Source of the DNA: Sphaerotilus microaerophilus
GTDB taxonomy: Bacteria; Pseudomonadota; Gammaproteobacteria; Burkholderiales; Burkholderiaceae_C
NCBI RefSeq assembly: GCF_023734135.1
Contig: NZ_AP025730.1
Coordinates: 4,402,001-4,466,000 of the forward strand
Direction: 5' to 3'
Length of the DNA stretch: 64,000 nt
Part shown: piece by piece, positions 47,984 through 63,999 of the stretch
How positions within the stretch are numbered: the first letter of the stretch is position 1
How the letters are laid out: each line of letters opens with the position of its first letter
Position numbers and translations under genes: made by a program
The notes under the pieces: generated by a model
The model's input: the letters and a program-made list of their open reading frames with translations, nothing else
The model's database searches: none
What the model was told of the DNA's origin: nothing

Positions 47984-50410
47984 ATGCACGATGGCCAAAC
48001 GCCCATCGCCCACAGCGCCCTGGGCGGCGGCGCACCGCATGCGCTGATCGACCACCTGCAGGCCGTCGCCCGGCTGGCCGCGCAGGCCATCCGGGCAGGC
48101 TGCGATGACCCGGCGCTGACTGCCCTGGCAGAACTGGCCGGCCGGTGGCACGACCTGGGCAAGTACCGGTCTGGCTTCCAGCGCTACATCCGGCTGGTGG
48201 GCGAGGCGCACATCGAAGGCCGGCTCCCGCAGGGCAGCGACAAGAGCCACTCCGCAGCCGGCGCACTGCACGCCGAGCGCTGGCTGAAGGAGCGCCAGGG
48301 GCCGGTCGGCCTGATGGCCGCCCGCCTGTTGCAGTACGTGATCGCCGGCCACCACGCAGGGCTGGACGACTGGCACAGCGACGTCGGCTGCCTTGCCGGG
48401 CGGCTTGCCGATGAGGCGGCGCAGCGCGAGTATCAGGAAGCACTCGGAACTGAGCCCCCCTCCTCGATCACCTCGCCCGCAACGACCTTGCCGAACCCGA
48501 AGACGCTGCCGATCACCCCTGGCACTGGCCACGAAGAGATCCCCGGCCGCCTTGCACTGTGGGTGCGCATGCTCTTCTCGGCCCTGGTCGACGCCGATTT
48601 CCTCGACACCGAAGCCTTCATGAACCCGGGCACCGCGGCAGCGCGCCAGGCCGCAGCCCCGTCAATGGCCGAATTGCTGGCCGCCTTCGATGCCTACATG
48701 TCCAAGAAGGCCGCCGCAGTGCAGACTGCCGGGCTGGCCGACAGCCCCGTCAACCGACAGCGCGCCGACGTGCTGGCCGCCTGCCGCGCCAAGGCCGCCG
48801 GTGCGCCTGGCACCTACACGCTGACTGTGCCCACCGGCGGCGGCAAGACACTGGCCAGCCTGGCCTTTGCGCTCACACACGCGCAGCGGCACGGCCTGCG
48901 GCGGGTGGTGATGGTGATCCCCTACACCAGCATCATCGAGCAGACCGCGGAGGTCTACCGCGAAGTCTTCGCGCCGCTCGGCGCGGAGGTGGCCGATCGC
49001 GTCGTGCTGGAGCACCACAGCAACGCCGCCGAGCCAGGCGAGGCGGCCGAGACGGCCCGCTCCCGCCTGGCCTGCGAGAACTGGGATGCGCCCATCGTCG
49101 TCACCACCAGCGTGCAGCTCTTCGAGAGCCTGTTCGCCCGCCGGACCTCGCGCTGCCGCAAGCTGCACGCGCTGCGCGGCGCCGTGATCGTGATCGACGA
49201 GGCCCAGTTGCTGCCGGCGGACTTCCTGCAGCCGGTGGTGGACGTGCTGCGCCTGCTGGTGCGCGACCACGGTGCCACCGTCGTGCTCTGCACGGCCACC
49301 CAGCCAACGCTGACCGAGCAGCGCCATTTCGGCGGGCGCGGCCTGCGCGGCTACGCACCCGGTGAGGTCACCGCGATCATCGACGACGAGCCGGCCCTGT
49401 ATGCCGCCCTGCAGCGCGTGCAGGTGCGCCTGCCCGCCAGCCTGACCCAGCCCCAGGGCTGGGAGGTCACCGCCGAGGCCCTCGCCCGCCACGACGCCGC
49501 GCTGGCCATCGTCGGCCGCCGCGCCGACGCCCGCGAGCTCTACGAGCGCCTCGCCCGCGAGCTGCCCACCGGGCGCGAAGGCCTGTGGCACCTCTCGGCG
49601 CTGATGTGCCCGCAGCACCGCAGCGAGGTCATTGCCGACATCAAGTCCGCACTCGCGGCGCGGCGCGCGGCCCTGGCCCGTGGCGAGCCGGCCACGCCGG
49701 TGCGGGTGGTCTCCACCCAGCTGGTCGAGGCTGGCGTCGACCTGGACTTCCCGGTGGTGTTCCGCGCGCTGGCCGGGCTGGACTCCATCGCGCAGGCGGC
49801 CGGCCGCTGCAACCGCGAGGGCCGGCTCGAACGCGGCGAGGTGCACGTCTTCGTGCCGCCCAAGGCGCCCCCGCCTGGCCTGCTACGGCAGGCCGCGCAG
49901 GCCTGCACGCTCGTCTGGGACGGAATGGATCCAACCGGCGACGACGACCCGCTGGCGCTGGAACGGGTATCGCGCTACTTCGCCCGACTGTACGGTGGCG
50001 CCGAGCTGGACCGCCACGGCATCGCCGAACTGCTGCGCCTGGAAGTCGACCCACGCGCTGGCGCGCTGGCGATGAACTTCCGCAGCGCGGCCGACAAGTT
50101 CCGCCTCATCGACGAGAAGGACGCCGCCACTGTCTTCGTGCGCTGGCACAGCCCGCGCTGCCGCGACGACGTGAACGCCCTGCTCGGCCTTCTGGAGCGC
50201 GACGGCCCCTCGCGCTGGCTGATGCGCCGGCTGCAGCGCTACGGCGTGACGATCTATCAGCAGGATCTGAAACGCCTGCTTGCCGCCGGCGACGTGCACG
50301 AACTGCTGCCTGGCCTGTACGTGCAGACCGACAGCGATGTGTTCTACGACCCGGTGCTCGGCGCCCTGCTGGGCGGCGCACCCGGCGATCCGGCGGCATA
50401 TGCCATCTGA
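47984..50410 (+). CDS. cas3: Type I-C Cas3 nuclease-helicase
   Basis: 808 residues, fused HD nuclease and SF2 helicase. GGAGG lies eight bases upstream of the ATG. HD motifs: His56-Asp57 in GRWHDLGKYRSGF and the later AGHHAG. Helicase motifs: Walker A VPTGGGKTLASLA (about residue 283), the DEAQ box VIVIDEAQLLP (about 404), TATQP, and QAAGRCNREG in motif VI. It is recruited by Cascade to target DNA and degrades it. First gene of the cas locus; a 444-bp gap separates it from cas5c. Confidence 0.97.
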   Translation: MHDGQTPIAHSALGGGAPHALIDHLQAVARLAAQAIRAGCDDPALTALAELAGRWHDLGKYRSGFQRYIRLVGEAHIEGRLPQGSDKSHSAAGALHAERWLKERQGPVGLMAARLLQYVIAGHHAGLDDWHSDVGCLAGRLADEAAQREYQEALGTEPPSSITSPATTLPNPKTLPITPGTGHEEIPGRLALWVRMLFSALVDADFLDTEAFMNPGTAAARQAAAPSMAELLAAFDAYMSKKAAAVQTAGLADSPVNRQRADVLAACRAKAAGAPGTYTLTVPTGGGKTLASLAFALTHAQRHGLRRVVMVIPYTSIIEQTAEVYREVFAPLGAEVADRVVLEHHSNAAEPGEAAETARSRLACENWDAPIVVTTSVQLFESLFARRTSRCRKLHALRGAVIVIDEAQLLPADFLQPVVDVLRLLVRDHGATVVLCTATQPTLTEQRHFGGRGLRGYAPGEVTAIIDDEPALYAALQRVQVRLPASLTQPQGWEVTAEALARHDAALAIVGRRADARELYERLARELPTGREGLWHLSALMCPQHRSEVIADIKSALAARRAALARGEPATPVRVVSTQLVEAGVDLDFPVVFRALAGLDSIAQAAGRCNREGRLERGEVHVFVPPKAPPPGLLRQAAQACTLVWDGMDPTGDDDPLALERVSRYFARLYGGAELDRHGIAELLRLEVDPRAGALAMNFRSAADKFRLIDEKDAATVFVRWHSPRCRDDVNALLGLLERDGPSRWLMRRLQRYGVTIYQQDLKRLLAAGDVHELLPGLYVQTDSDVFYDPVLGALLGGAPGDPAAYAI

Positions 50411-50420
50411 AAGGACGACT

Positions 50421-50512
50421 CGCGAAGGGCAAAGCCCTTCGCGGTCGACGCTTCATGCGAGGAACACCGTGCCTCACTTAGTTTCAACCCACCCCCTTCT
50501 GGGGGATGGCGC
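50421..50512 (-). ncRNA. Candidate CRISPR-resembling RNA (degenerate repeat-spacer-repeat)
   Basis: Read on the minus strand, 50512-50481 is a 32-nt repeat-like unit: a CCCCC-AGAA-GGGGG hairpin followed by the handle TGGGTTGAAAC, which differs by one base from the TGGATTGAAAC handle of the array. Next is a 31-nt spacer-like segment (50480-50450, starting TAAGTGAGG). Then comes a second repeat-like unit (50449-50421) starting GTCG and containing a perfect 10-bp hairpin CGCGAAGGGC-TTT-GCCCTTCGCG but no handle. Cas5c, which processes I-C repeats, could release a crRNA-like RNA from this. The plus-strand reading as a hairpin after cas3 is the simple alternative. Transcription is not shown. Confidence 0.45.
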
Positions 50513-50528
50513 AATCGTAACACCAGAG

Positions 50529-50540
50529 GGATCATGATCC
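50529..50540. repeat. Palindrome GGATCATGATCC
   Basis: A perfect 12-bp palindrome between the degenerate CRISPR unit and the AT-rich segment. It could be an operator; no protein is assigned. Confidence 0.35.
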
Positions 50541-50590
50541 ATCACGTTCATATAGGTACACCTAAATAACTTAGAACTTCGATGTAGACT
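50541..50590 (+). promoter_or_regulatory. AT-rich promoter-like segment upstream of small ORF and cas5c
   Basis: This 50-bp stretch is far more AT-rich than its surroundings and contains TATAGG, TAAATA and TAGACT hexamers, though none pairs with a good -35. It contains a short inverted repeat AGGT-AC-ACCT (50554-50563) and, on the minus strand, TTC followed by TAAGT (50576-50569), matching the start of the spacer-like segment at 50480. It probably holds the promoter for the 41-codon ORF and the cas5c-cas8c-cas7c genes. Confidence 0.4.
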
Positions 50591-50622
50591 GCGCCTCATC
50601 CAGAACGCAGTGGGGCATCTCC

Positions 50623-50748
50623 ATGGATTTCCTGTCCAACCTTGTGCGCGAGCTTCGGCTCATGAAGGACCAGCCGGCCGACCGGTTCTACACCGCCTGC
50701 CTTGTCGCGGTGACAGCCATGCTGACCATTGCGTACGTCCTTAAGTGA
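50623..50748 (+). CDS. Small single-span membrane peptide (41 aa), hypothetical
   Basis: ATG at 50623 with TGGGG seven bases upstream; stop TGA at 50746-50748. The N-terminal half is charged and amphipathic (MDFLSNLVRELRLMKDQPAD) and the C-terminal half is a likely membrane helix (TACLVAVTAMLTIAYVLK). It resembles small membrane toxins and small membrane proteins in general layout, but I recognise no family. It lies between the degenerate CRISPR unit and cas5c, the place where a guarded toxin gene would sit in a creTA-like arrangement. No paralogue is visible in the window. Confidence 0.45.
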   Translation: MDFLSNLVRELRLMKDQPADRFYTACLVAVTAMLTIAYVLK

Positions 50749-50854
50749 ACTGGTTGATGGTGCGCATGAACCCCGAAGTCCCCACTCTACCCCCTGGCGC
50801 TCGCGGGAGAGGCACCAACCTGTCAGAACGAATTTGGCCGAAAAGGAAGTAAGC

Positions 50855-51514
50855 ATGACTTCATCACACTGCCTGGACGTGCGCGGCGACTACGCCTGCT
50901 TCACCCGACCCGAGATGAAGGTCGAGCGCGTGTCCTACGACTTCATCACCCCCTCGGCCGCCCGCGCGGTGTTCGAGGCCATTCTCTGGAAGCCCGAGAT
51001 CCGCTGGCGCATGGAGCGCATCGAGGTGCTGGCCCCCGTGCGCTGGATCAGCGTGCGGCGCAACGAGGTGGGCGCGGTGGTCTCCACCCGCAACGTGACC
51101 AGCGCGATGCAGTCCGGCAGCGGGCAGCTGGGCCTGTACATCGAGGACGAGCGGCAGCAGCGCGCCGGCCTCTTCCTGCGCGACGTGGCCTACCGGCTGC
51201 ATGCCCGCATGGAGCCAGTCAAGGGCGAGGCGCTGCACAACCCGGCCAAGTACGCCGAGATGTTCGCCCGCCGTGCGGCCAAGGGCCAGTGCGTCAACCA
51301 GCCCTACCTGGGCTGCCGTGAATTCGACGCCCGGGTGCGGCTGGTGACCTCGCCCGACGGCGAGCCGGAGCCGCTGGCTGCGGTGGACGGCGACTTCGGC
51401 TGGATGCTCTACGACATGGACTTCAGCCGCCCCAGCGACCCGCGGCCGATGTTCTTCCGCGCCCAGGTCACGCGCGGGGTGCTGGACCTGACCAAGGCGG
51501 AGGTGCGGTCATGA
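50855..51514 (+). CDS. cas5c: Cas5c (Cas5d), crRNA-processing Cascade subunit
   Basis: 219 residues from the ATG at 50855 (AAGGAAG upstream). The N-terminus CLDVRGDYACFTRPEMKVER, then SYDFITPSAARAVFEAILWK, is typical of Cas5 of subtype I-C. In I-C, which has no Cas6, Cas5c cuts the pre-crRNA at the base of the repeat hairpin to leave an 11-nt 5' handle, and then stays in Cascade. No cas6 is present here, consistent with this. It overlaps cas8c by four bases (ATGA). Confidence 0.95.
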   Translation: MTSSHCLDVRGDYACFTRPEMKVERVSYDFITPSAARAVFEAILWKPEIRWRMERIEVLAPVRWISVRRNEVGAVVSTRNVTSAMQSGSGQLGLYIEDERQQRAGLFLRDVAYRLHARMEPVKGEALHNPAKYAEMFARRAAKGQCVNQPYLGCREFDARVRLVTSPDGEPEPLAAVDGDFGWMLYDMDFSRPSDPRPMFFRAQVTRGVLDLTKAEVRS

Positions 51515-53310
51515 TCCTTCAGGCGCTGCACGCGTACTGCCTGCGCAAGATGCGCGACCCCGACCCGGCACGGCGGCTGCCGGCGGCCGGGCTGGAGGAG
51601 AAGGAAATTCCCTTCATCCTGGAGCTGGCGGCCGACGGGCGGCTGATCGGCATCAGCGACACCCGGACGCAGGAGGGCAAGAAGAAGATTGCCAGGCGCT
51701 TTCTGGTGCCGCAGGGCGTCAAGAAGACCTCGGGTGTGGCGGCCAACCTGCTCTGGGACACGGCGGAATACGTGCTCGGCTTCGACACCAAGGGCAAACC
51801 GGAGCGGGTGGCCGAACAGACGGCAGCGTTTCGCCGCCGCGTCGAGGAAGTGGCGCAGCGGGCTCCCGACGATGCCGGCCTGCAAGCTGTGCTGGCCTTT
51901 CTCTCCAGCGAACCGCTGGCCGCCGCGCAAGGCCAATCCGCCTGGGCCGAGATCGCCGAAGCGAACCCGCTGCTGAGCTTCCGTCTGGCCAGCGAAGACG
52001 CGGTCGATCTGGTCTGCCAGCGCCCCGCAGTGGTCGCCGCCATCGCGTCGCCATCCGAACCGACGGCCGCAGCGGCGCAAGGCCTGCCTTGCCTGATCAC
52101 CGGCGGCAACGCCGAACCGGAGCGCCTGCACAGCGCGATCAAGGGCGTCTGGGGCGCGCAGACCTCGGGCGCCAACATCGTTTCGTTCAACCTCGACGCC
52201 TTCCGCTCCTTCGGCAAGGAGCAGGGCGCCAACGCCCCGGTCAGCCCGGCGGCGGCCTTCGCCTACACCACTGCGCTGAACTACCTGCTCACCAAGGGCT
52301 CGCACCAGCGCATGCAGGTGGGCGACGCCAGCACGGTGTTCTGGGCCCAGTCGGAGGCGGACGCCGACTTCGAGAACGCCTTCGCCGCCTTCTTCAACGA
52401 CCAACACGACGACCCGGACGCCCACACCGCGCAGGTGCGGGCGCTATTGGGCGCGGTGCACAGCGGGCGCTTCGGTGGCACCGCCGGTGAACGGCGCTTC
52501 TTCGTGCTGGGCCTGGCGCCCAACGCGGCGCGCATCTCGATCCGCTTCTGGCACGCCGCACCGCTGGCCGAGGTGGGCGAGCGCATCCAGCGCTGGTTCG
52601 ACGAGTTGGATATCGCGGGCGGCGCGAAGGACCCGGCCTACCCGTCGCTGTTCCGCCTGCTCACCGCCGTCGCCCTGCAGGGCAAGGCCGACAACATCCC
52701 GCCCAACCTGGGTGGCGACGTGATGCGCGCCATCCTGAGCGGCACGCCCTTCCCTGCCCTGTGGCTCAACGCCGCGGTGCAGCGCTGCCGGGCCGAGCAG
52801 CGCGTCACCCACCTACGCGCCGCGGCCATCAAGGCCTGCCTGCTGCGCAGCCACCCCCTTTCACCCCAGGAGGACCCGAAAGCCATGCTCGACCGTGACA
52901 ACCCCAATGCGGCCTACCGCCTCGGCCGCCTCTTCGCCGTGCTGGAGAAGATCCAGGAAGAGGCCAACCCCGGCCTGAACGCCACCATCCGCGAGCGCTA
53001 CTACGGCGCGGCCTCCAGCACCCCGGTGGCGGTGTTCACCACGCTGCTGCGGCTGAAGAACCACCACCTGGCCAAGCTGACGAATCGCGGCAGGGCCACG
53101 AACTTCGAGAAGCTGATCGGGGAGATCACCGGCGGCATCGCCGACTTCCCGCTGCACCTGCCGCTGCCCGAGCAGGGCCGCTTCGCCCTGGGCTACTACC
53201 ACCAGCGCCAGGACTTCTTCACCAAGCACGAGGCCGCCGATGCCGGCGCCGACCCCGCCGTCGATGCGCCTGCCGCTGCGGCCACGCCCGCGCAACCCAG
53301 CCTGATCTGA
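51511..53310 (+). CDS. cas8c: Cas8c (Csd1), large Cascade subunit
   Basis: 599 residues. Family opening MILQALHAYCLRKMRDPDPA and blocks GISDTRTQEGKKKIARRFLV, VLGFDTKGKPERVAEQTAAF and GTPFPALWLNAAVQRCRAEQ. Cas8c recognises the PAM and contacts Cas3. The C-terminal helical part is also the Cas11c reading frame (internal start at 52885). The last 20 residues are an Ala/Pro-rich tail. Confidence 0.96.
   Translation: MILQALHAYCLRKMRDPDPARRLPAAGLEEKEIPFILELAADGRLIGISDTRTQEGKKKIARRFLVPQGVKKTSGVAANLLWDTAEYVLGFDTKGKPERVAEQTAAFRRRVEEVAQRAPDDAGLQAVLAFLSSEPLAAAQGQSAWAEIAEANPLLSFRLASEDAVDLVCQRPAVVAAIASPSEPTAAAAQGLPCLITGGNAEPERLHSAIKGVWGAQTSGANIVSFNLDAFRSFGKEQGANAPVSPAAAFAYTTALNYLLTKGSHQRMQVGDASTVFWAQSEADADFENAFAAFFNDQHDDPDAHTAQVRALLGAVHSGRFGGTAGERRFFVLGLAPNAARISIRFWHAAPLAEVGERIQRWFDELDIAGGAKDPAYPSLFRLLTAVALQGKADNIPPNLGGDVMRAILSGTPFPALWLNAAVQRCRAEQRVTHLRAAAIKACLLRSHPLSPQEDPKAMLDRDNPNAAYRLGRLFAVLEKIQEEANPGLNATIRERYYGAASSTPVAVFTTLLRLKNHHLAKLTNRGRATNFEKLIGEITGGIADFPLHLPLPEQGRFALGYYHQRQDFFTKHEAADAGADPAVDAPAAAATPAQPSLI
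52885..53310 (+). CDS. cas11c: Cas11c small subunit from internal start within cas8c
   Basis: 141 residues in frame with cas8c. CAGGAGG at 52867-52873 lies 11 bases before an ATG at 52885 (MLDRDNPNAAYRLGRLFAVL), a strong ribosome-binding site unusual inside a gene. It is established for subtype I-C, as for I-B and I-D, that a separate Cas11 is translated from the 3' end of cas8 and is needed for Cascade. The product is largely helical (EANPGLNATIRERYYGAASS, then TLLRLKNHHLAKL), as expected. Confidence 0.8.
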   Translation: MLDRDNPNAAYRLGRLFAVLEKIQEEANPGLNATIRERYYGAASSTPVAVFTTLLRLKNHHLAKLTNRGRATNFEKLIGEITGGIADFPLHLPLPEQGRFALGYYHQRQDFFTKHEAADAGADPAVDAPAAAATPAQPSLI

Positions 53311-53334: not shown

Positions 53335-54246
53335 ATGACCACCCTCGCCCACCGCTACGACTTCGTGCTGCTCTTCGACGTGAAGGACGGCAACCCCAAT
53401 GGCGACCCGGACGCCGGCAACCTGCCGCGCCTGGACGCCGAAACCGGCCATGGCCTGATGACCGACGTGGCGCTCAAGCGCAAGGTGCGCAACTACGTCG
53501 GCCTCGTGCATGAGGAAAAGCCGCCCTACGAAATCTATGTGAAGGAGAAGGCAGTTCTCAATCGTGCCCACGAGCGCGCCTATGTCGAAACCGGCAATGC
53601 CGAGTCGCTAAAGGGCGATGAAAAGAAGCGCAAGGGCGCTGGCGATGCGGTCGAGCAGGCCCGCCAATGGATGTGCGCCAACTTCTTCGACGTGCGGACC
53701 TTCGGCGCGGTCATGAGCCTGGGCGTCAACTGCGGCCAGGTCCGCGGCCCAGTGCAAATGACCTTCGCCCGCTCGATCGAGCCCATCGTTGCGCTGGAGC
53801 ATTCCATCACCCGCATGGCCGTGGCCACCGAGGCCGAGGCCGAGAAGCAGGGCGGCGACAACCGCACCATGGGCCGCAAACACACCGTGCCCTATGGCCT
53901 GTACCGCTCGCACGGCTTCATTTCCAGCTTCCTGGCCCGACAGACCAGCTTCACGGCCGAGGACCTGGAGCTGCTGTTCAAGGCGCTGGAGCAGATGTTC
54001 GAGCACGACCGCTCGGCCGCACGCGGGCAGATGAGCACCCGCGGGCTGTATGTGTTCGAGCACGACAGCGAACTGGGCAATGCGCCCGCGCATGCGCTGT
54101 TCGACCGACTGGTGGTGGCGCCCACCGCGCCGGGCACGCCGGCGCGGGATTTCAGCGCCTACGCCGTCACGTTCGACGGTAAGACGTTGGAAGCGGGGGC
54201 CACCGTCGAGGCAGCACCGGGAGTCCGACTGACGCGGCGCTGCTGA
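53335..54246 (+). CDS. cas7c: Cas7c (Csd2), Cascade backbone subunit
   Basis: 303 residues. GGAGGAA precedes the ATG. Family blocks: [20 protein letters not shown], then [20 protein letters not shown], the [20 protein letters not shown] segment, [20 protein letters not shown] and [20 protein letters not shown]. Several copies coat the spacer part of the crRNA. It is followed 12 bp later by a convergent toxin gene instead of cas4. Confidence 0.97.
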
Positions 54247-54258
54247 AACCGCAACAGG

Positions 54259-54552
54259 TCAACCGCGGCGGGTCCAATACCCCGGCTTGCGACTCTGATG
54301 CATCAATGCCAGCACGGTCAGGGTCGATGCTTCGACCCGGTACACCAGTGAATACGGATAGCGCCCCAGCGGCAGCACGCGTGCGCGGGCAAGGGACGGC
54401 GTTCCCAGGTCCGGGTCACGCATCAGCATCTCACCGAGTTGCTCGATGCGCCGCTGCAGTTGGCGCGCCACCTGCGGTCCGAACTCGGCATCGCTGCGCG
54501 CCAATGCGTCTCGCAGCTCCTGTTCGGCAGCGGGGTGGAGGATGAGATGCAT
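54259..54552 (-). CDS. ParE/RelE-superfamily toxin
   Basis: 97 residues from the ATG at 54552. Fold features include PAAEQELRDALARSDAEFGP, the RRIEQLGEMLMRDPDLGTP segment and LPLGRYPYSLVYRVEAS, which match the ParE-type arm (Arg/Lys-rich centre, YSLVYRV strand). It is the second gene of a pair with the antitoxin at 54563, ten bases apart. It is inserted on the minus strand between cas7c and cas4, against the direction of the cas operon. Confidence 0.85.
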   Translation of the reverse strand: MHLILHPAAEQELRDALARSDAEFGPQVARQLQRRIEQLGEMLMRDPDLGTPSLARARVLPLGRYPYSLVYRVEASTLTVLALMHQSRKPGYWTRRG

Positions 54553-54562
54553 CAACCGTGCA

Positions 54563-54787
54563 TCAACGGTATGGGGCCCGCAGCTCCTGCATCACCTCGC
54601 TCCACGGCCGACAGGTCACCTCGCCGCGGTCCACCTCGGCGATGCGCTGCGCAATCTCCGCCTCCCACTCCGGGCTCAGCGGCGGCGCCGGCTCGATGCT
54701 CTCCAGCAGCGTTTCCGCCAGCACGGCGCGCTGCTCTGGCGGCAGATCCAAAGCCTGGGCCGTCAATTCTTCCAACGTCGATGACAT
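54563..54787 (-). CDS. Antitoxin of the ParE-type pair
   Basis: 74 residues from the ATG at 54787 (GGAGCCAGG upstream); an ATG at 54817 is an alternative. MSSTLEELTAQALDLPPEQR, then AVLAETLLESIE, and a C-terminal RPWSEVMQELRAPYR are typical of the addiction-module component family that pairs with ParE/RelE toxins. It should neutralise the toxin and repress the pair. 64 bp separate it from the divergent cas4. Confidence 0.85.
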   Translation of the reverse strand: MSSTLEELTAQALDLPPEQRAVLAETLLESIEPAPPLSPEWEAEIAQRIAEVDRGEVTCRPWSEVMQELRAPYR

Positions 54788-54851
54788 ACCTGGCTCCATC
54801 TCGAATCCTTGAGGCATACCGAGAGTCTAGGTCCAGAAGCCCCGCACTGCC

Positions 54852-57079: not shown

Positions 57080-60000
57080 GTCGCCGGCCGGGAAACCGGT
57101 CGGCGTGGATTGAAACCTGGCCGGGCACGTTCGACACGCTGCCCTCGGTCGTCGCCGGCCGGGAAACCGGTCGGCGTGGATTGAAACTCGACCCTCCGTA
57201 CACCAAGGGCGCGATGGACTACGGTCGCCGGCCGGGAAACCGGTCGGCGTGGATTGAAACTATCCTCTTGGTGACGACACGGCTCGCAACGTGGGTCGCC
57301 GGCCGGGAAACCGGTCGGCGTGGATTGAAACTCCGAAGGCCTGGAGGCGCAGTGGCAGTCGCTGCTGGTCGCCGGCCGGGAAACCGGTCGGCGTGGATTG
57401 AAACGGTCTTGGGCCGGGCCTGTACCCGAAGGCGCTGGCGGTCGCCGGCCGGGAAACCGGTCGGCGTGGATTGAAACCATCTCCAGCAGCGACTGCCACT
57501 GCGCCTCCAGGGTCGCCGGCCGGGAAACCGGTCGGCGTGGATTGAAACCCAGGGCTGCTTGGTGATGGTGCCGAGGATGGCCGTCGCCGGCCGGGAAACC
57601 GGTCGGCGTGGATTGAAACCACCTTGGGGCAAACGATACTTTAGATGGGGCGGGTCGCCGGCCGGGAAACCGGTCGGCGTGGATTGAAACAGGAGATTGC
57701 TCCTCGCCGCATCAACCCGCGCCGTCGCCGGCCGGGAAACCGGTCGGCGTGGATTGAAACGGGAAGTGGCGCAGCTGCTCGATCAGGGTCGTCTGGTCGC
57801 CGGCCGGGAAACCGGTCGGCGTGGATTGAAACCGATTGAAACGACGCAATCACTGATCGACAAGGCGTCGCCGGCCGGGAAACCGGTCGGCGTGGATTGA
57901 AACTGATATGAGCCAAGGGGTTATCTTTGGAGACATGGTCGCCGGCCGGGAAACCGGTCGGCGTGGATTGAAACACTGACTAACCAGGAGTTACCGAAAT
58001 GTCTGACGTCGCCGGCCGGGAAACCGGTCGGCGTGGATTGAAACTCGGACAGCACCTTGACCACCACCCCCGCCATTGGTGTCGCCGGCCGGGAAACCGG
58101 TCGGCGTGGATTGAAACTTTCCGACGGCTGGCTGTTTTGCTGGCGCTGCTGGTCGCCGGCCGGGAAACCGGTCGGCGTGGATTGAAACACAAACCGCTTG
58201 ATTGATCGGGGCGTTGAGTTCGGTCGCCGGCCGGGAAACCGGTCGGCGTGGATTGAAACCAGCTACCCCAAGTAAAATTAGGTCAGACGATGTGTCGCCG
58301 GCCGGGAAACCGGTCGGCGTGGATTGAAACCGCAGTCTCGCAAGCCGCGCGCCAAGTATCAGCGCCGTCGCCGGCCGGGAAACCGGTCGGCGTGGATTGA
58401 AACAGCGGCAGTGTTACCGTTGGTTATCCGCATGAACTGTCGCCGGCCGGGAAACCGGTCGGCGTGGATTGAAACCTCACGAGGCCGCGGTCATGGAGCT
58501 GGCGCAAGGTCGCCGGCCGGGAAACCGGTCGGCGTGGATTGAAACAACCATGACGTGACCAACTGCCTGGCGCGCGTCGTCGCCGGCCGGGAAACCGGTC
58601 GGCGTGGATTGAAACTGGATGGCAGAGATTGGGAGATTTCACCTGTTCAGTCGCCGGCCGGGAAACCGGTCGGCGTGGATTGAAACCTGTTCGACACCAC
58701 CCACTGGCAAAGGACCGGGGAAGTCGCCGGCCGGGAAACCGGTCGGCGTGGATTGAAACACCGTACCGGCCTACGGCACGCCGCGCCGGGTGGTGGGTCG
58801 CCGGCCGGGAAACCGGTCGGCGTGGATTGAAACGCCTTGCCGCGGCACAACACCTTGTCGATTGGTGGTCGCCGGCCGGGAAACCGGTCGGCGTGGATTG
58901 AAACGAGCCATCCCACCTCATCGGCGCCGGGCTCAAGTCGCCGGCCGGGAAACCGGTCGGCGTGGATTGAAACGCCCTCATCGAAGGGTTTACCGCGCGC
59001 ATCGCGCAGGTCGCCGGCCGGGAAACCGGTCGGCGTGGATTGAAACTGGGACGAAAAGTGCCCCGCCGCGCTGGGCACTTGTCGCCGGCCGGGAAACCGG
59101 TCGGCGTGGATTGAAACTGGCGCAGTTTGCCCCACTTGGCGGGCGGGAAGAGTCGCCGGCCGGGAAACCGGTCGGCGTGGATTGAAACCACCTGCGCGTG
59201 ATCCGCGTGTTCCTGGCGCAGGTCGCCGGCCGGGAAACCGGTCGGCGTGGATTGAAACTACGCCACACTGCGCACAATAGGCGCTGTCTGGCAGTCGCCG
59301 GCCGGGAAACCGGTCGGCGTGGATTGAAACGCTGGCCCCTGCCTGCCCTCGCTGGCCCCTGCCTGGTCGCCGGCCGGGAAACCGGTCGGCGTGGATTGAA
59401 ACGACGACGCATCGGCCGAGCTCACCACCGACCGCAGTCGCCGGCCGGGAAACCGGTCGGCGTGGATTGAAACAATAGCCAGCTTGACTTCCGTGAACGG
59501 CATGCCCGCGTCGCCGGCCGGGAAACCGGTCGGCGTGGATTGAAACACCGCGCCGGCCACCCTCAACGGCTGGAGCCTCACGTCGCCGGCCGGGAAACCG
59601 GTCGGCGTGGATTGAAACTGGGCTCACGGCTCCGTCCTCCACCGGATGACCCGGTCGCCGGCCGGGAAACCGGTCGGCGTGGATTGAAACACAATTCGGC
59701 GAGATCAGCGCCAAGGTCGCCGACAGGTCGCCGGCCGGGAAACCGGTCGGCGTGGATTGAAACTCGGCCCAGCTGCCCGAGATGTACTTCCCAGGCCTGT
59801 CGCCGGCCGGGAAACCGGTCGGCGTGGATTGAAACTTGCTCACGCCGAGCCCGCTGCTTTGCACACCATGGTCGCCGGCCGGGAAACCGGTCGGCGTGGA
59901 TTGAAACAGCTACGAGGCCGGCACCGGTGACATGCGTGAGGTCGCCGGCCGGGAAACCGGTCGGCGTGGATTGAAACCAGCCCGCATCGGTGGACGGCCA

Positions 60001-62049
60001 GCCGGGCGGCGGTCGCCGGCCGGGAAACCGGTCGGCGTGGATTGAAACTGCAGGCCACTGATGTTTGCCGCAGCGCCTGCCGTCGCCGGCCGGGAAACCG
60101 GTCGGCGTGGATTGAAACCCAGGCTCTGCCAGTGCGCCGGCCTGCGGCTCTGGTCGCCGGCCGGGAAACCGGTCGGCGTGGATTGAAACACAGTGTTCGG
60201 CGGCATGCGCCAGCCTTTGGCGGTCGCCGGCCGGGAAACCGGTCGGCGTGGATTGAAACAGCCCCGCCAACGGACTGGCCCGGGCACGGCATGTCGCCGG
60301 CCGGGAAACCGGTCGGCGTGGATTGAAACGAGACCACGACTGAGTTGCTACCCCACCAGGTGCCGTCGCCGGCCGGGAAACCGGTCGGCGTGGATTGAAA
60401 CCGCGCGAGTGATACAGATAAGGCAGACAGAAGGTGGGTCGCCGGCCGGGAAACCGGTCGGCGTGGATTGAAACCGGCGTGAGCATGTTGGTGGCAAAGG
60501 TTCCCAGTGTCGCCGGCCGGGAAACCGGTCGGCGTGGATTGAAACGCGAAGTACCAACAACTGATGAAGAAACGGAGGGCGTCGCCGGCCGGGAAACCGG
60601 TCGGCGTGGATTGAAACTGCACGCTTGCGCTCGGTAGCCATGGCGCGCTCCGTCGCCGGCCGGGAAACCGGTCGGCGTGGATTGAAACTTATGCGCGGTG
60701 ACCCACCGACCACAGATCGGCGGTCGCCGGCCGGGAAACCGGTCGGCGTGGATTGAAACATGTTGACCGGCCGGAAACGGCAAACATCGACATGTCGCCG
60801 GCCGGGAAACCGGTCGGCGTGGATTGAAACCGCTCCGCGCCAGCGCACGACATCCTGTTGGCCAGTCGCCGGCCGGGAAACCGGTCGGCGTGGATTGAAA
60901 CTGTCGACGCGATGGCGGACATTGTCCTGGATCTGGTCGCCGGCCGGGAAACCGGTCGGCGTGGATTGAAACGCTCGCTGTGACCTGGCACAGCCCAGGC
61001 GGTGATGTCGCCGGCCGGGAAACCGGTCGGCGTGGATTGAAACTACGCCGGCGTGTCCGTGTGCCATCACCACGGCACGTCGCCGGCCGGGAAACCGGTC
61101 GGCGTGGATTGAAACGATGGAATGCCCAAGCAACAGCAAGCACAGATGCGTCGCCGGCCGGGAAACCGGTCGGCGTGGATTGAAACAGATGGTGGCGCCG
61201 GATCACACCGGTGCGCGGACAGTCGCCGGCCGGGAAACCGGTCGGCGTGGATTGAAACCACATCGACTACGAGGCTCAGTACGACTACACCACCCGTCGC
61301 CGGCCGGGAAACCGGTCGGCGTGGATTGAAACAGCATCGGCATCCCCGTCTTCCACGGCGGCCCGGCGTCGCCGGCCGGGAAACCGGTCGGCGTGGATTG
61401 AAACGTGTGGACCCGGGGCTGACCATGGGCACGACCCACGTCGCCGGCCGGGAAACCGGTCGGCGTGGATTGAAACCGCCTCAGCGTCGACGCCCGCCAG
61501 GTCGGCCTGGTCGCCGGCCGGGAAACCGGTCGGCGTGGATTGAAACGCCGAGCCCATCATCAGCGGCACCGCGCCGATTGCGTCGCCAGCCGGGAAACCG
61601 GTCGGCGTGGATTGAAACACCGGGTCGGGCGTAGACGCGCACTTTTTCGACCGGTCGCCGGCCGGGAAACCGGTCGGCGTGGATTGAAACTGGCCGATAT
61701 GGCCGCCCTTGCGGGCCTCAACAACGTCGCCGGCCGGGAAACCGGTCGGCGTGGATTGAAACGTGCGAGATTGCACTATTAGGGGTCAATCGACCGTCGC
61801 CGGCCGGGAAACCGGTCGGCATGGATTGAAACCAGCGAGCCCCAGTCAGACAGACACTTGAGCAGCTTGTCGCCGGCCGGGAAACCGGTCGGCGTGGATT
61901 GAAACGACCCAGTACGCATGAACGTATTGGTCGAATTGGGTCGCCGGCCGGGAAACCGGTCGGCGTGGATTGAAACGACGTGCACACGGATTGCCTCTTG
62001 ACAGGTATTGACGTCGCCGGCCGGGAAACCGGTCGGCGTGGATTGAAAC
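57080..62049 (+). CRISPR. Type I-C CRISPR array, leader-proximal block (repeats 1-70)
   Basis: Seventy 37-bp repeats and 69 intact spacers of 32-37 bp. The repeat is GTCGCC-led, with 10-bp arms CGCCGGCCGG and CCGGTCGGCG (one G-U pair) around a GAAA tetraloop, followed by the 11-nt handle TGGATTGAAAC that Cas5c should leave. Most copies are identical. Repeat 64 (61582-61618) has G to A at position 7 and repeat 67 (61796-61832) has G to A at position 26. Orientation is set by the handle and by the adjacent cas2 and leader at the 5' end, so newest spacers are near 57117. Spacers 4 and 6 overlap on opposite strands. Confidence 0.98.
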
Positions 62050-62078
62050 TGCACCAGCGTGGTGCAAACGGATAATTT

Positions 62079-63236
62079 TAGGACTTACGCAAACGTTTAA
62101 ATCAAACTAGATTATTTAATATATCGGCGCCGATTTCGTGGTATTTGTGATAATATATTCACCATGAAACCCACGAGCCGAGACTACTGCCAATTTCTGA
62201 TATCCACACAAATCAACTACACGCAGACCTATTTTGCGGATCACCATCAGAGGTTTTCTCATGACGCCATAAATCGCTACTTGCAGGCTGCCAATATCAG
62301 CCCGGCCGATGTCTGGAATCTGGCCCGACGAAACATCGAATTTGACGACGATGCCTGCCTGGTTTTCGATGACAGCGTTCTGGACAAGAACCACTCGCAC
62401 AAAATCGAGCTGGTGCGCAAACAGTACAGCGGCAACGCCCACGGCCTGATCAAGGGCATTGGGGTGGTCAACTGCCTGTACGTGAACATCAAGACCGGCC
62501 ACTACTGGATCATCGACTGGCGCATCTATGCGCCTGACGAAGACGGCAAGTCCAAGCTGGATCATGTCCAGGAGATGTTCGACAATGCCATGGCGCACAA
62601 GAAGCTGCCCTTTCGCACCGTGCTGATGGACTCCTGGTACGCCACCATGGATCTGATGAAGCACATCCACCGGGCGGGCAAGCACTTCTACTGCCCGCTC
62701 AAGAGCAATCGCAAGGTTGACGACAGCCAAGGCCAGCAGCCCTACAAGGCGGTCAGTACGCTGCAGTGGAGTGCCCAAGAACATGTGCATGGCAAACACG
62801 TCAAACTGTTCAAGTTTCCCAGTGACATCAAGCTGAAACTGTTCCGGGTTGTGGTTGATACCAATCGCACGGACTGGGTTGTGACAAACGACCTATCTCA
62901 AGATTCGACGGACGATACGCATGAGATGTGTGCCGTGCGCTGGAAGATTGAGCAGTACCACAGGGAGATCAAGCAGGTTCTTGGCATCGAAAAATGTCAG
63001 TGCAGAATGGCCCGGTCACAGAAGAATCACATCGCCTGCGCGATATTGGCCTGGGTCCACCTCTGCGAGACGGCCAAAGCGCTGAAGACAAACATCTACA
63101 GCCTGAAGAAGGGAATCCTCTCGGAATTCCTCAAGAAGGAACTTCGGTCACCAACCATTCGCATGGCACCCATCTGACATATTGAGTCGAAATGGCGAAT
63201 CATTGCGCTAGCTGAAGTGACCCTGCGTAAGTCCTA
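62079..63236 (+). mobile_element. Insertion sequence (1158 bp) within the array
   Basis: 13-bp terminal inverted repeats TAGGACTTACGCA (62079-62091) and TGCGTAAGTCCTA (63224-63236), flanked by a 5-bp direct repeat AATTT (62074-62078 and 63237-63241). It carries one DDE transposase gene. Its base composition is clearly less GC-rich than the host DNA, suggesting recent entry from elsewhere. The transposase looks like the IS4/IS701 group, but the 5-bp duplication should be checked against that family. Confidence 0.85.
62164..63177 (+). CDS. DDE transposase (IS4/IS701-like)
   Basis: 337 residues. Likely catalytic residues are Asp69 or Asp70 in CLVFDDSVLDKNHSHKIEL, Asp156 in TVLMDSWYATMDLM and Glu263 in RWKIEQYHREIKQVLG. 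It appears full length with no frameshift, so the element may still be active. Codon use and GC content differ from the neighbouring genes. The family name is tentative. Confidence 0.85.
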   Translation: MKPTSRDYCQFLISTQINYTQTYFADHHQRFSHDAINRYLQAANISPADVWNLARRNIEFDDDACLVFDDSVLDKNHSHKIELVRKQYSGNAHGLIKGIGVVNCLYVNIKTGHYWIIDWRIYAPDEDGKSKLDHVQEMFDNAMAHKKLPFRTVLMDSWYATMDLMKHIHRAGKHFYCPLKSNRKVDDSQGQQPYKAVSTLQWSAQEHVHGKHVKLFKFPSDIKLKLFRVVVDTNRTDWVVTNDLSQDSTDDTHEMCAVRWKIEQYHREIKQVLGIEKCQCRMARSQKNHIACAILAWVHLCETAKALKTNIYSLKKGILSEFLKKELRSPTIRMAPI

Positions 63237-63246
63237 AATTTATCCA

Positions 63247-63999
63247 GTCGCCGGCCGGGAAACCGGTCGGCGTGGATTGAAACGGCTAGAGGGATAACCT
63301 TAACCGGGTCAATCGAGTCGCCGGCCGGGAAACCGGTCGGCGTGGATTGAAACAGCAGGCCCGGGAGCCTATGCGCAGCAAGGAATGTGTCGCCGGCCGG
63401 GAAACCGGTCGGCGTGGATTGAAACAATAACGTCAACCTGGGCGCATACTACCGCGCCGGTCGCCGGCCGGGAAACCGGTCGGCGTGGATTGAAACTGGG
63501 TGGTGGCAGCCATGGGATGGGCTCCTTTCCGGTCGCCGGCCGGGAAACCGGTCGGCGTGGATTGAAACAGCCAGGCCCACCCGGCCGGCGTGATCGAAGG
63601 CAGGTCGCCGGCCGGGAAACCGGTCGGCGTGGATTGAAACGTCAAGACCAAGAACCTCGACCGCCTGCTTGCGGGGGTCGCCGGCCGGGAAACCGGTCGG
63701 CGTGGATTGAAACATCAGCGTGAGCAGGTCGCGCGCGCCCCAGCTCACGTCGCCGGCCGGGAAACCGGTCGGCGTGGATTGAAACCATGCCTGCATTACA
63801 CCATACGGTGTCATTTCAGGGTCGCCGGCCGGGAAACCGGTCGGCGTGGATTGAAACGTCTACTCCGCGCAGGCAGCACCCGCGCAGCTGCGTCGCCGGC
63901 CGGGAAACCGGTCGGCGTGGATTGAAACCGAATCTAGCGCAAGCACGTCTCCGATGGGCTGGGTCGCCGGCCGGGAAACCGGTCGGCGTGGATTGAAAC
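63247..63999 (+). CRISPR. Type I-C CRISPR array, leader-distal block (repeats 71-81)
   Basis: Eleven further 37-bp repeats with ten intact spacers of 33-36 bp, all repeats identical to the consensus. The array continues past base 64000, so its true end and any terminal degenerate repeat are not seen. Without read-through of the insertion sequence, crRNAs from this part may be produced poorly. Confidence 0.97.

Follow-up and report, generated by a model that had tools for sequence, protein, structure and literature searches.

A putative single-repeat CreA/CreR-like guide gene between cas3 and cas5c of a type I-C CRISPR-Cas locus, next to a small membrane-protein ORF that precedes the Cascade genes

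In the window (the whole analysed stretch of 64,000 nucleotides), the gap between cas3 and cas5c contains on the minus strand one degenerate type I-C repeat followed by a 31-nt guide, as established by reading the sequence and by a script check. We consider this element, with a probability of about 0.75, to be a crRNA-like gene with a single repeat, of the CreA/CreR kind, by which the I-C Cascade would silence its own operon and, in this locus, a toxin-like membrane protein as well. What we observe in the sequences is the anatomy of the element, its conservation, the co-variation of guides with their targets, the specificity for TTC and for the handle, and the selection acting on a small ORF. 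The preliminary description had recognised here a degenerate CRISPR-like unit with a handle one base off that of the array, a 5-bp hairpin with an AGAA loop and a 31-nt spacer-like stretch, all of which was borne out; it missed, however, the target in the putative promoter region and the membrane-protein ORF at 50623-50748.

On the plus strand, cas3 (47984-50410) ends 10 nt before a 10-bp hairpin described below; its HD domain (TIGR01596) scores above the cut-off, and its helicase core (TIGR01587) reaches 90 bits, under the cut-off of 102. The genes cas5c, cas8c and cas7c follow in this order on the same strand: cas5c at 50855-51514 (NCBIfam TIGR01876, 179 bits over 50858-51511; the start is an ATG of our choice), cas8c/csd1 at 51511-53310 (TIGR01863, 571 bits) and cas7c/csd2 at 53335-54246 (TIGR02589, 405 bits). 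Because of these NCBIfam matches and that of Cas1c (490 bits), the cas genes can be assigned to subtype I-C, which the preliminary description had only surmised. The type I-C array occupies 57080-63999 of the plus strand, with 79 exact 37-nt repeats inside the window and the repeat end TGGATTGAAAC. Cas5c makes the 11-nt handle, and TTC is the usual I-C PAM.

Two side observations concern the locus. The array spacers at 57340-57368 and 57483-57511 contain 29-nt stretches that are perfectly reverse-complementary, as if one source had been acquired twice in opposite orientation. Between cas7c and cas4, a minus-strand ORF in 54259-54817 runs against the cas operon beside a TIGR02574 addiction-module component (E 9e-9); it has no NCBIfam match, and we take it to be ParE/RelE-like.

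The repeat-like unit (psiR) spans 50481-50517 on the minus strand and consists of a stem-loop, CCCCC-AGAA-GGGGG at 50505-50492, running into the 11-nt handle TGGGTTGAAAC at 50491-50481. The handle keeps 10 of the 11 bases of the array handle TGGATTGAAAC, and in a scan of the whole window it was the sole 11-mer within one mismatch of the latter outside 57-64 kb. The remainder of the unit bears a poor likeness to the array repeat (8 of 26 bases). The guide (psiS, 31 nt, 5' TAAGTGAGGCACGG...) is at 50450-50480 of the same strand, and GTCGAC separates its end (50450) from the stem (50443) of a GC-rich hairpin at 50421-50443 with a perfect 10-bp stem, CGCGAAGGGC-TTT-GCCCTTCGCG. The preliminary description had taken this hairpin for a second repeat and read the element as repeat-spacer-repeat. 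The perfect stem stands, and the repeat status is rejected, as the best ungapped identity to the array repeat, 14/37, is at the level of shuffled sequences (mean 14.5, P 0.74). The hairpin is probably the terminator-like 3' end of a putative guide RNA. An Rfam search of the window gave nothing at the element, and a simple scan of 50380-50900 revealed neither a sigma-70 consensus promoter nor a T-tract terminator.

The proposed target (protospacer) of the guide is at 50540-50573 on the minus strand, if a length of 34 nt is assumed, with the seed TAAGT-T-A at 50573-50567 and the PAM TTC at 50576-50574. The guide, TAAGT-G-A, agrees with it at 6 of the 7 seed positions, at 7 of 10 over positions 1-5 and 7-11, and at 8 of 15 overall. 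The string TTC-TAAGT-T-A (50576-50567, minus strand) lies 6 nt before TGTAGACT, the same distance from TGTAGA as that of the target in G001, a locus of the same genus. The -10-like TAGACT at 50585-50590 on the plus strand would belong to the regulated promoter, and TAGA(C/G/A)T is equally placed in G001, G233, G402 and G200. A perfect palindrome, GATCATGATC (50530-50539), and an inverted repeat, TAGGT-AC-ACCTA (50553-50564), which could be an operator, were also noticed by eye in the interval from the guide gene to the target seed.

Taken without its relatives, the pairing in the window would not be convincing. Shuffled guides give P values of 0.05 for the seed and 0.10 for the ten positions, and the match is the weakest among the 20 loci considered below, which counts against our reading. 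When the guide was scored at every position on both strands of the approximately 320 nt next to the repeat, the TTC-flanked minus-strand site was at the top in all five loci then known; in the window it came first by total score, with three sites tied on the seed. A whole-genome search with the window guide, allowing at most 3 mismatches, yielded 25 places, compared to 38 for a reversed control pattern. Among the 25 are the guide's own sequence and two TTC sites that, with 2 mismatches, are better overall than the local target.

We collected 108 I-C loci by Cas5c similarity, cas5c being placed by tblastn: 44 from the family (including G010), 27 new ones from the order, 21 new ones from the phylum, 4 new ones from one genus and 12 of 45 plasmid records. 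The weak matches G047 and G017, duplicate genomes, additional pieces of matches that had been split and the remaining 33 plasmid records were left out. The sources of loci were Cas5c and small-ORF searches and plasmid records; genus searches gave no new locus. Sixty-eight loci have a cas3-cas5c gap of up to 100 nt and 33 a longer one, the end of cas3 not being found in 7. A locus was counted if GAAAC was followed by a 17-nt guide matching a TTC-flanked site in its own gap at 11 or more of 15 positions (positions 6 and 12 were not scored). Nineteen loci qualified, at 11-15 of 15 positions, and all of them are among the 33 loci with gaps longer than 100 nt; by source, these are 9/44 from the family, 7/27 from the order, 1/21 from the phylum, 1/4 from the genus and 1/12 from plasmids. 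With 19 of 108 loci combining a GAAAC-ended repeat and a guide that matches a local TTC-flanked site, the creR/creA-like interpretation of the preliminary description proved right in kind.

These matches depend on both the PAM and the handle. Each of 12 other triplets in place of TTC gave 0/108 loci, and guides compared with the gaps of other loci matched in 7 of 11,556 pairs. When the letters of GAAAC were rearranged in 19 ways, no arrangement gave more than one locus within the gaps (three gave 1, the others 0), compared to 19 for GAAAC. A scan of 5.3 kb in 40 loci gave nine matches for TTC, 0-3 for 11 other triplets and 0-5 for each of five other handles; one match of that scan, in G253, is inside an ORF and was taken as chance. 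Thirteen of the 33 long-gap loci had no match, and allowing handles with up to 2 mismatches in these 13 yielded scattered candidates only.

The window is under the threshold with its 8 of 15 positions and was counted as the twentieth locus by homology of place; with it, 89 of the 108 loci are below the threshold, which also counts against our reading. Over positions 1-5 and 7-11, 18 of the 20 loci match at 9 or 10 of 10, G233 at 8 and the window at 7. Thus, 19 of the 20 match at 8-10 of the ten positions reported as paired in a haloarchaeal CreA (PMC8501985). From the counts and controls, and from the window's 8 of 15 and P values of 0.05-0.10, we therefore regard the family as very well supported and the window pairing as moderately so.

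In G001 the whole module is present. Both guide and target differ from those of the window, the target being as far from the -10-like element as in the window: the guide CAAAT-C-TGACT-A-GCTGC faces the target CAAAT-A-TGTCT-T-GCTGC, with TTC in front. The seeds of the window and G001 differ at two positions and the targets differ alike; guides and targets change together. In G416 and G028 (L098 and L009), the target is situated just past the cas3 stop and upstream of a TTGAC(A/G) hexamer, and the guide gene follows downstream on the plus strand; this arrangement would be a second layout of the same circuit. G012, whose Cas5c is 98% identical to that of the window, and G010 have a short cas3-cas5c gap and no module, which is a further point against our reading. 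In G027, G056 and G982 (L010, L012 and L155), where no guide was found, the gap holds another ORF of approximately 100 aa (KxxYKxTxPNGKIYVGxDLTDSI...), presumably GIY-YIG-like. A DNA search with the gap of the window gave one 34-nt match, to a Sphingomonas plasmid (E 0.1), and none in 50,697 phage records.

The predicted RNA has a similar anatomy across the family. Most of the 20 loci have a predicted stem-loop adjoining the 11-nt handle and, approximately 25-45 nt downstream of the handle, a strong hairpin, which is followed by T-tracts in G1273, G1374, G426 and G402; for G1047, folding of 75 nt revealed no strong hairpin. The stretch downstream of the cas genes was compared for 18 loci, an array was found in 12 of them (in G416 it consists of 3 copies only), and in each of these the mini-repeat handle differs from that of the locus' own array by 0 or 1 base. 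Hence the handle and hairpins, whose conservation in homologous I-C loci the preliminary description had proposed as a check, are indeed retained, the hairpins in most of the 20 loci. The combination of stem-loop, handle and downstream hairpin would fit a guide with one repeat and a terminator at its end.

Between the element and cas5c, the plus strand of the window contains a 41-codon ORF (50623-50748; MDFLSNLVRELRLM...) of what we call the RELRL family, with an N-terminal helix and one hydrophobic helix. One family of such small membrane proteins, 40-60 aa long, is present in 10 of the 20 loci, the window included, and has the approximate motif L-R-E-h-R-L-x3-Q-x-P-x2-R-F followed by one hydrophobic stretch. 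In six pairs compared by NG86, pS is 0.75-0.89, near saturation, while pN is as low as 0.11-0.34; because of this, the ORF is very probably translated into a selected protein, and the substitution pattern indicates that the family is under purifying selection. In G402, G200, G1313 and G1248 the stop of the ORF is 7-16 nt from the start of Cas5c homology, and hence the ORF looks like a part of the cas operon there; in the window the distance is 109 nt. AlphaFold predicts helices at residues 2-14 and 19-40 for the window ORF, with a mean pLDDT of 79 and a pTM of 0.39.

The window ORF matches no NCBIfam, Pfam or PADLOC family, and its relatives have Pfam matches below the cut-off only. A profile search of a protein database produced 39 proteins at E of at most 1, none with a precomputed Pfam domain; the organism names shown are Aquincola, Inhella and Denitromonas. 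Scanning genome contigs with five ORF sequences gave 2 loci, and tblastn of the small ORF in plasmids gave none. The class-level small-ORF search, the window's own match aside, was counted as no support outside the family, and the weak small-ORF search matches L019, L024 and L030 were inspected and rejected.

Relatives of this family occur in phages. Four of the six members tested match phrog_6632, a PHROG family of unknown function, at E 2e-5 to 2e-3, and profile comparison aligns the CRISPR-linked family with six phage relatives over 34 columns with 97.9% probability. In Salmonella phage SPN3UB and in Escherichia phages vB_EcoS-783R2 and 569R3 they are situated between endolysin and Rz, and in two Pseudomonas phages, SEN34, Rac-SA53 and an Actinobacillus phage in tail or baseplate regions. 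Unannotated small membrane ORFs in the endolysin-Rz gap of enterobacterial phages (L221:2501-2632 and L224:1898-2026) are kin of the CRISPR-linked family as well.

The other ten loci vary in what occupies this place. G269 and G1047 have other small membrane ORFs in the same place, before a plus-strand mini-repeat (family profile 0.2 and 4.1 bits, respectively), and G1374 has a lipoprotein-like ORF (-1.1 bits); by these values, all three fail to score with the profile. Among ORFs of at least 24 aa, no convincing small membrane ORF was seen in seven loci: G264, G426, G028, G416, G1144, G1273 and pl_L209. As for the cas-promoter target that characterises CreR, the window target is upstream of the small ORF and then cas5c, and the targets of G264 and G426 are directly upstream of cas5c, the promoters and the shared transcript being putative.

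Our reading implies the following course of events. The element would be transcribed into a minus-strand RNA that keeps the Cas5c handle and the hairpin and comprises a guide of approximately 31 nt and the hairpin end. The I-C Cascade loaded with this processed RNA would bind the divergent promoter by partial complementarity (positions 1-5 and a part of 7-11, next to the TTC PAM) and repress the operon of the small membrane protein, cas5c, cas8c and cas7c, presumably one transcript, without cutting; the partial pairing is compatible with repression without cleavage. If Cascade became scarce, were lost or were blocked by an anti-CRISPR, the promoter would open and more Cascade would be made, together with the membrane protein in the window locus. 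In G264 and G426 this would amount to plain cas autorepression, and in the window and nine other loci the membrane protein would be released along with new Cascade. The 41-aa protein would most likely be a CreT-like toxin, judging from the layout, its size and hydrophobicity, and the analogy to a type I-E ORF of Citrobacter rodentium.

A bolder version of the model, which we hold tentatively and at somewhat below even odds, is a two-output I-C circuit. One guide would silence both a captured phage-type membrane protein (a relative of phrog_6632) and cas5c-cas8c-cas7c, so that a block of Cascade would refill Cascade and at the same time fire an abortive-infection fuse. The loci would swap or drop this cartridge while keeping the guide-promoter pair, and CreR and CreTA would be interconvertible.

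The guide might instead only tune cas5c-cas8c-cas7c, as in CreR, the membrane protein being an accessory such as a membrane anchor, a phage-exclusion protein or a leader cistron. This pure autoregulation, which we consider unlikely, agrees with the seven loci where a guide-target pair is upstream of cas5c with no convincing small membrane ORF, with the operon-like position of the ORF in the four loci with 7-16 nt spacing, and with a review according to which CreR is generally uncoupled from toxins (PMC12737573). However, ten loci keep one conserved membrane-protein family, the other small membrane ORFs that occupy this place in G269 and G1047 are what exchangeable toxins would be expected to look like, and the equally placed I-E ORF of C. 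rodentium is reported to be toxic (PMC12055562). It is also conceivable, but rather improbable, that the family is real and the window copy is a decaying relic, its guide having drifted and repression having been lost. The weak pairing and the close relatives without the module would be explained in this way; against it, the window keeps the handle, the hairpin, TTC at the homologous place, five seed bases in a row and a conserved ORF that is intact.

The remaining explanations deny the element a guide function. A solitary repeat left by a mobile element could act as a decoy, similarly to the Racr RNA anti-CRISPRs, and the single repeat unit and the phage relatives of the small protein would be in line with that. 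We find this very improbable, since the guides of related loci pair with a site in the cas/ORF promoter region of the same locus, the module resides inside the cas locus in many genera, and the gap has no nucleotide match in the phage records searched. That the element is a mere bidirectional terminator between convergent transcripts, with the handle there by chance, is suggested by the terminator-like hairpin right after cas3, and yet is scarcely credible given the recurrence of handles and guide-target pairs in the 19 loci and their dependence on TTC and on GAAAC.

Shmakov 2023 is reportedly a survey of CRISPR-derived regulatory elements. It, or the CreR paper of Liu 2023, may list I-C loci; among the literature matches listed there was no I-C case of CreA/CreR, and the main texts of PMC8501985, PMC12737573 and PMC9458426 contain 0 mentions of "I-C".

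In the haloarchaeal type I-B CreTA, a guide with a degenerate repeat pairs at positions 1-5 and 7-11 with a TTC-flanked promoter site, and creA of Haloarcula hispanica is a one-repeat form ending in a terminator (PMC8501985). The I-C element resembles it in the degenerate repeat, the predicted 1-5/7-11 pairing, the TTC-flanked site in the putative promoter region and the one-repeat form with a terminator-like end. Unlike the CreT of that system, which comprises tRNA-sequestering RNAs with mini-ORFs, the ORF here encodes a 40-60-aa membrane protein, with pN far below pS, before the Cascade genes of an I-C locus; a toxic RNA may be present elsewhere in the gap. The layout is that of the type I-E CreTA of C. 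rodentium, with cas3, an opposite-strand CreA, a target in the promoter region, a short ORF and the first Cascade gene; there, the short ORF before the first Cascade gene is translated and stops growth, an effect that is lost when its start codon is mutated (PMC12055562). In contrast to the ATG PAM and the 96-bp ORF without annotated relatives of that system, the PAM here is TTC, and the ORF has a family of dozens and phage relatives.

CreR has been described for types I-B, I-E and V-A (PMC13131331). The I-C guide is similar to it in its limited complementarity to a cas promoter, which here is putative, and differs in the type and in the membrane protein that stands between target and cas5c in ten of the 20 loci, CreR being generally uncoupled from toxins (PMC12737573). 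In CrePA, a KilA-N protein toxin is repressed by CreA-Cascade and triggered by anti-CRISPR (PMC12737573). Both cases would place a phage-descended protein, here a candidate toxin, under a crRNA-like guide; unlike CrePA, the window ORF has no KilA-N match, and its product would be a very small membrane protein encoded immediately ahead of the Cascade genes. Racr RNA anti-CRISPRs are likewise solitary repeat mimics, but they are virus-encoded and block Cas, whereas the present element is host-encoded and its guide has a local target (PMC10651486).

According to a 2025 review, type I-B is so far the only type in which CreTA has been clarified, and the review raises the question of its existence in other types and with other toxins (PMC12737573). 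The loci described here point to CreA/CreR-like guides in type I-C, mostly within one bacterial order, with single cases outside. Since a conserved protein cartridge is present in half of the loci and none was found in some others, interconversion between cas autoregulation and CRISPR addiction becomes testable in this family. The small membrane-protein family with phage relatives, in turn, is a candidate toxin that would be wired to anti-CRISPR sensing.
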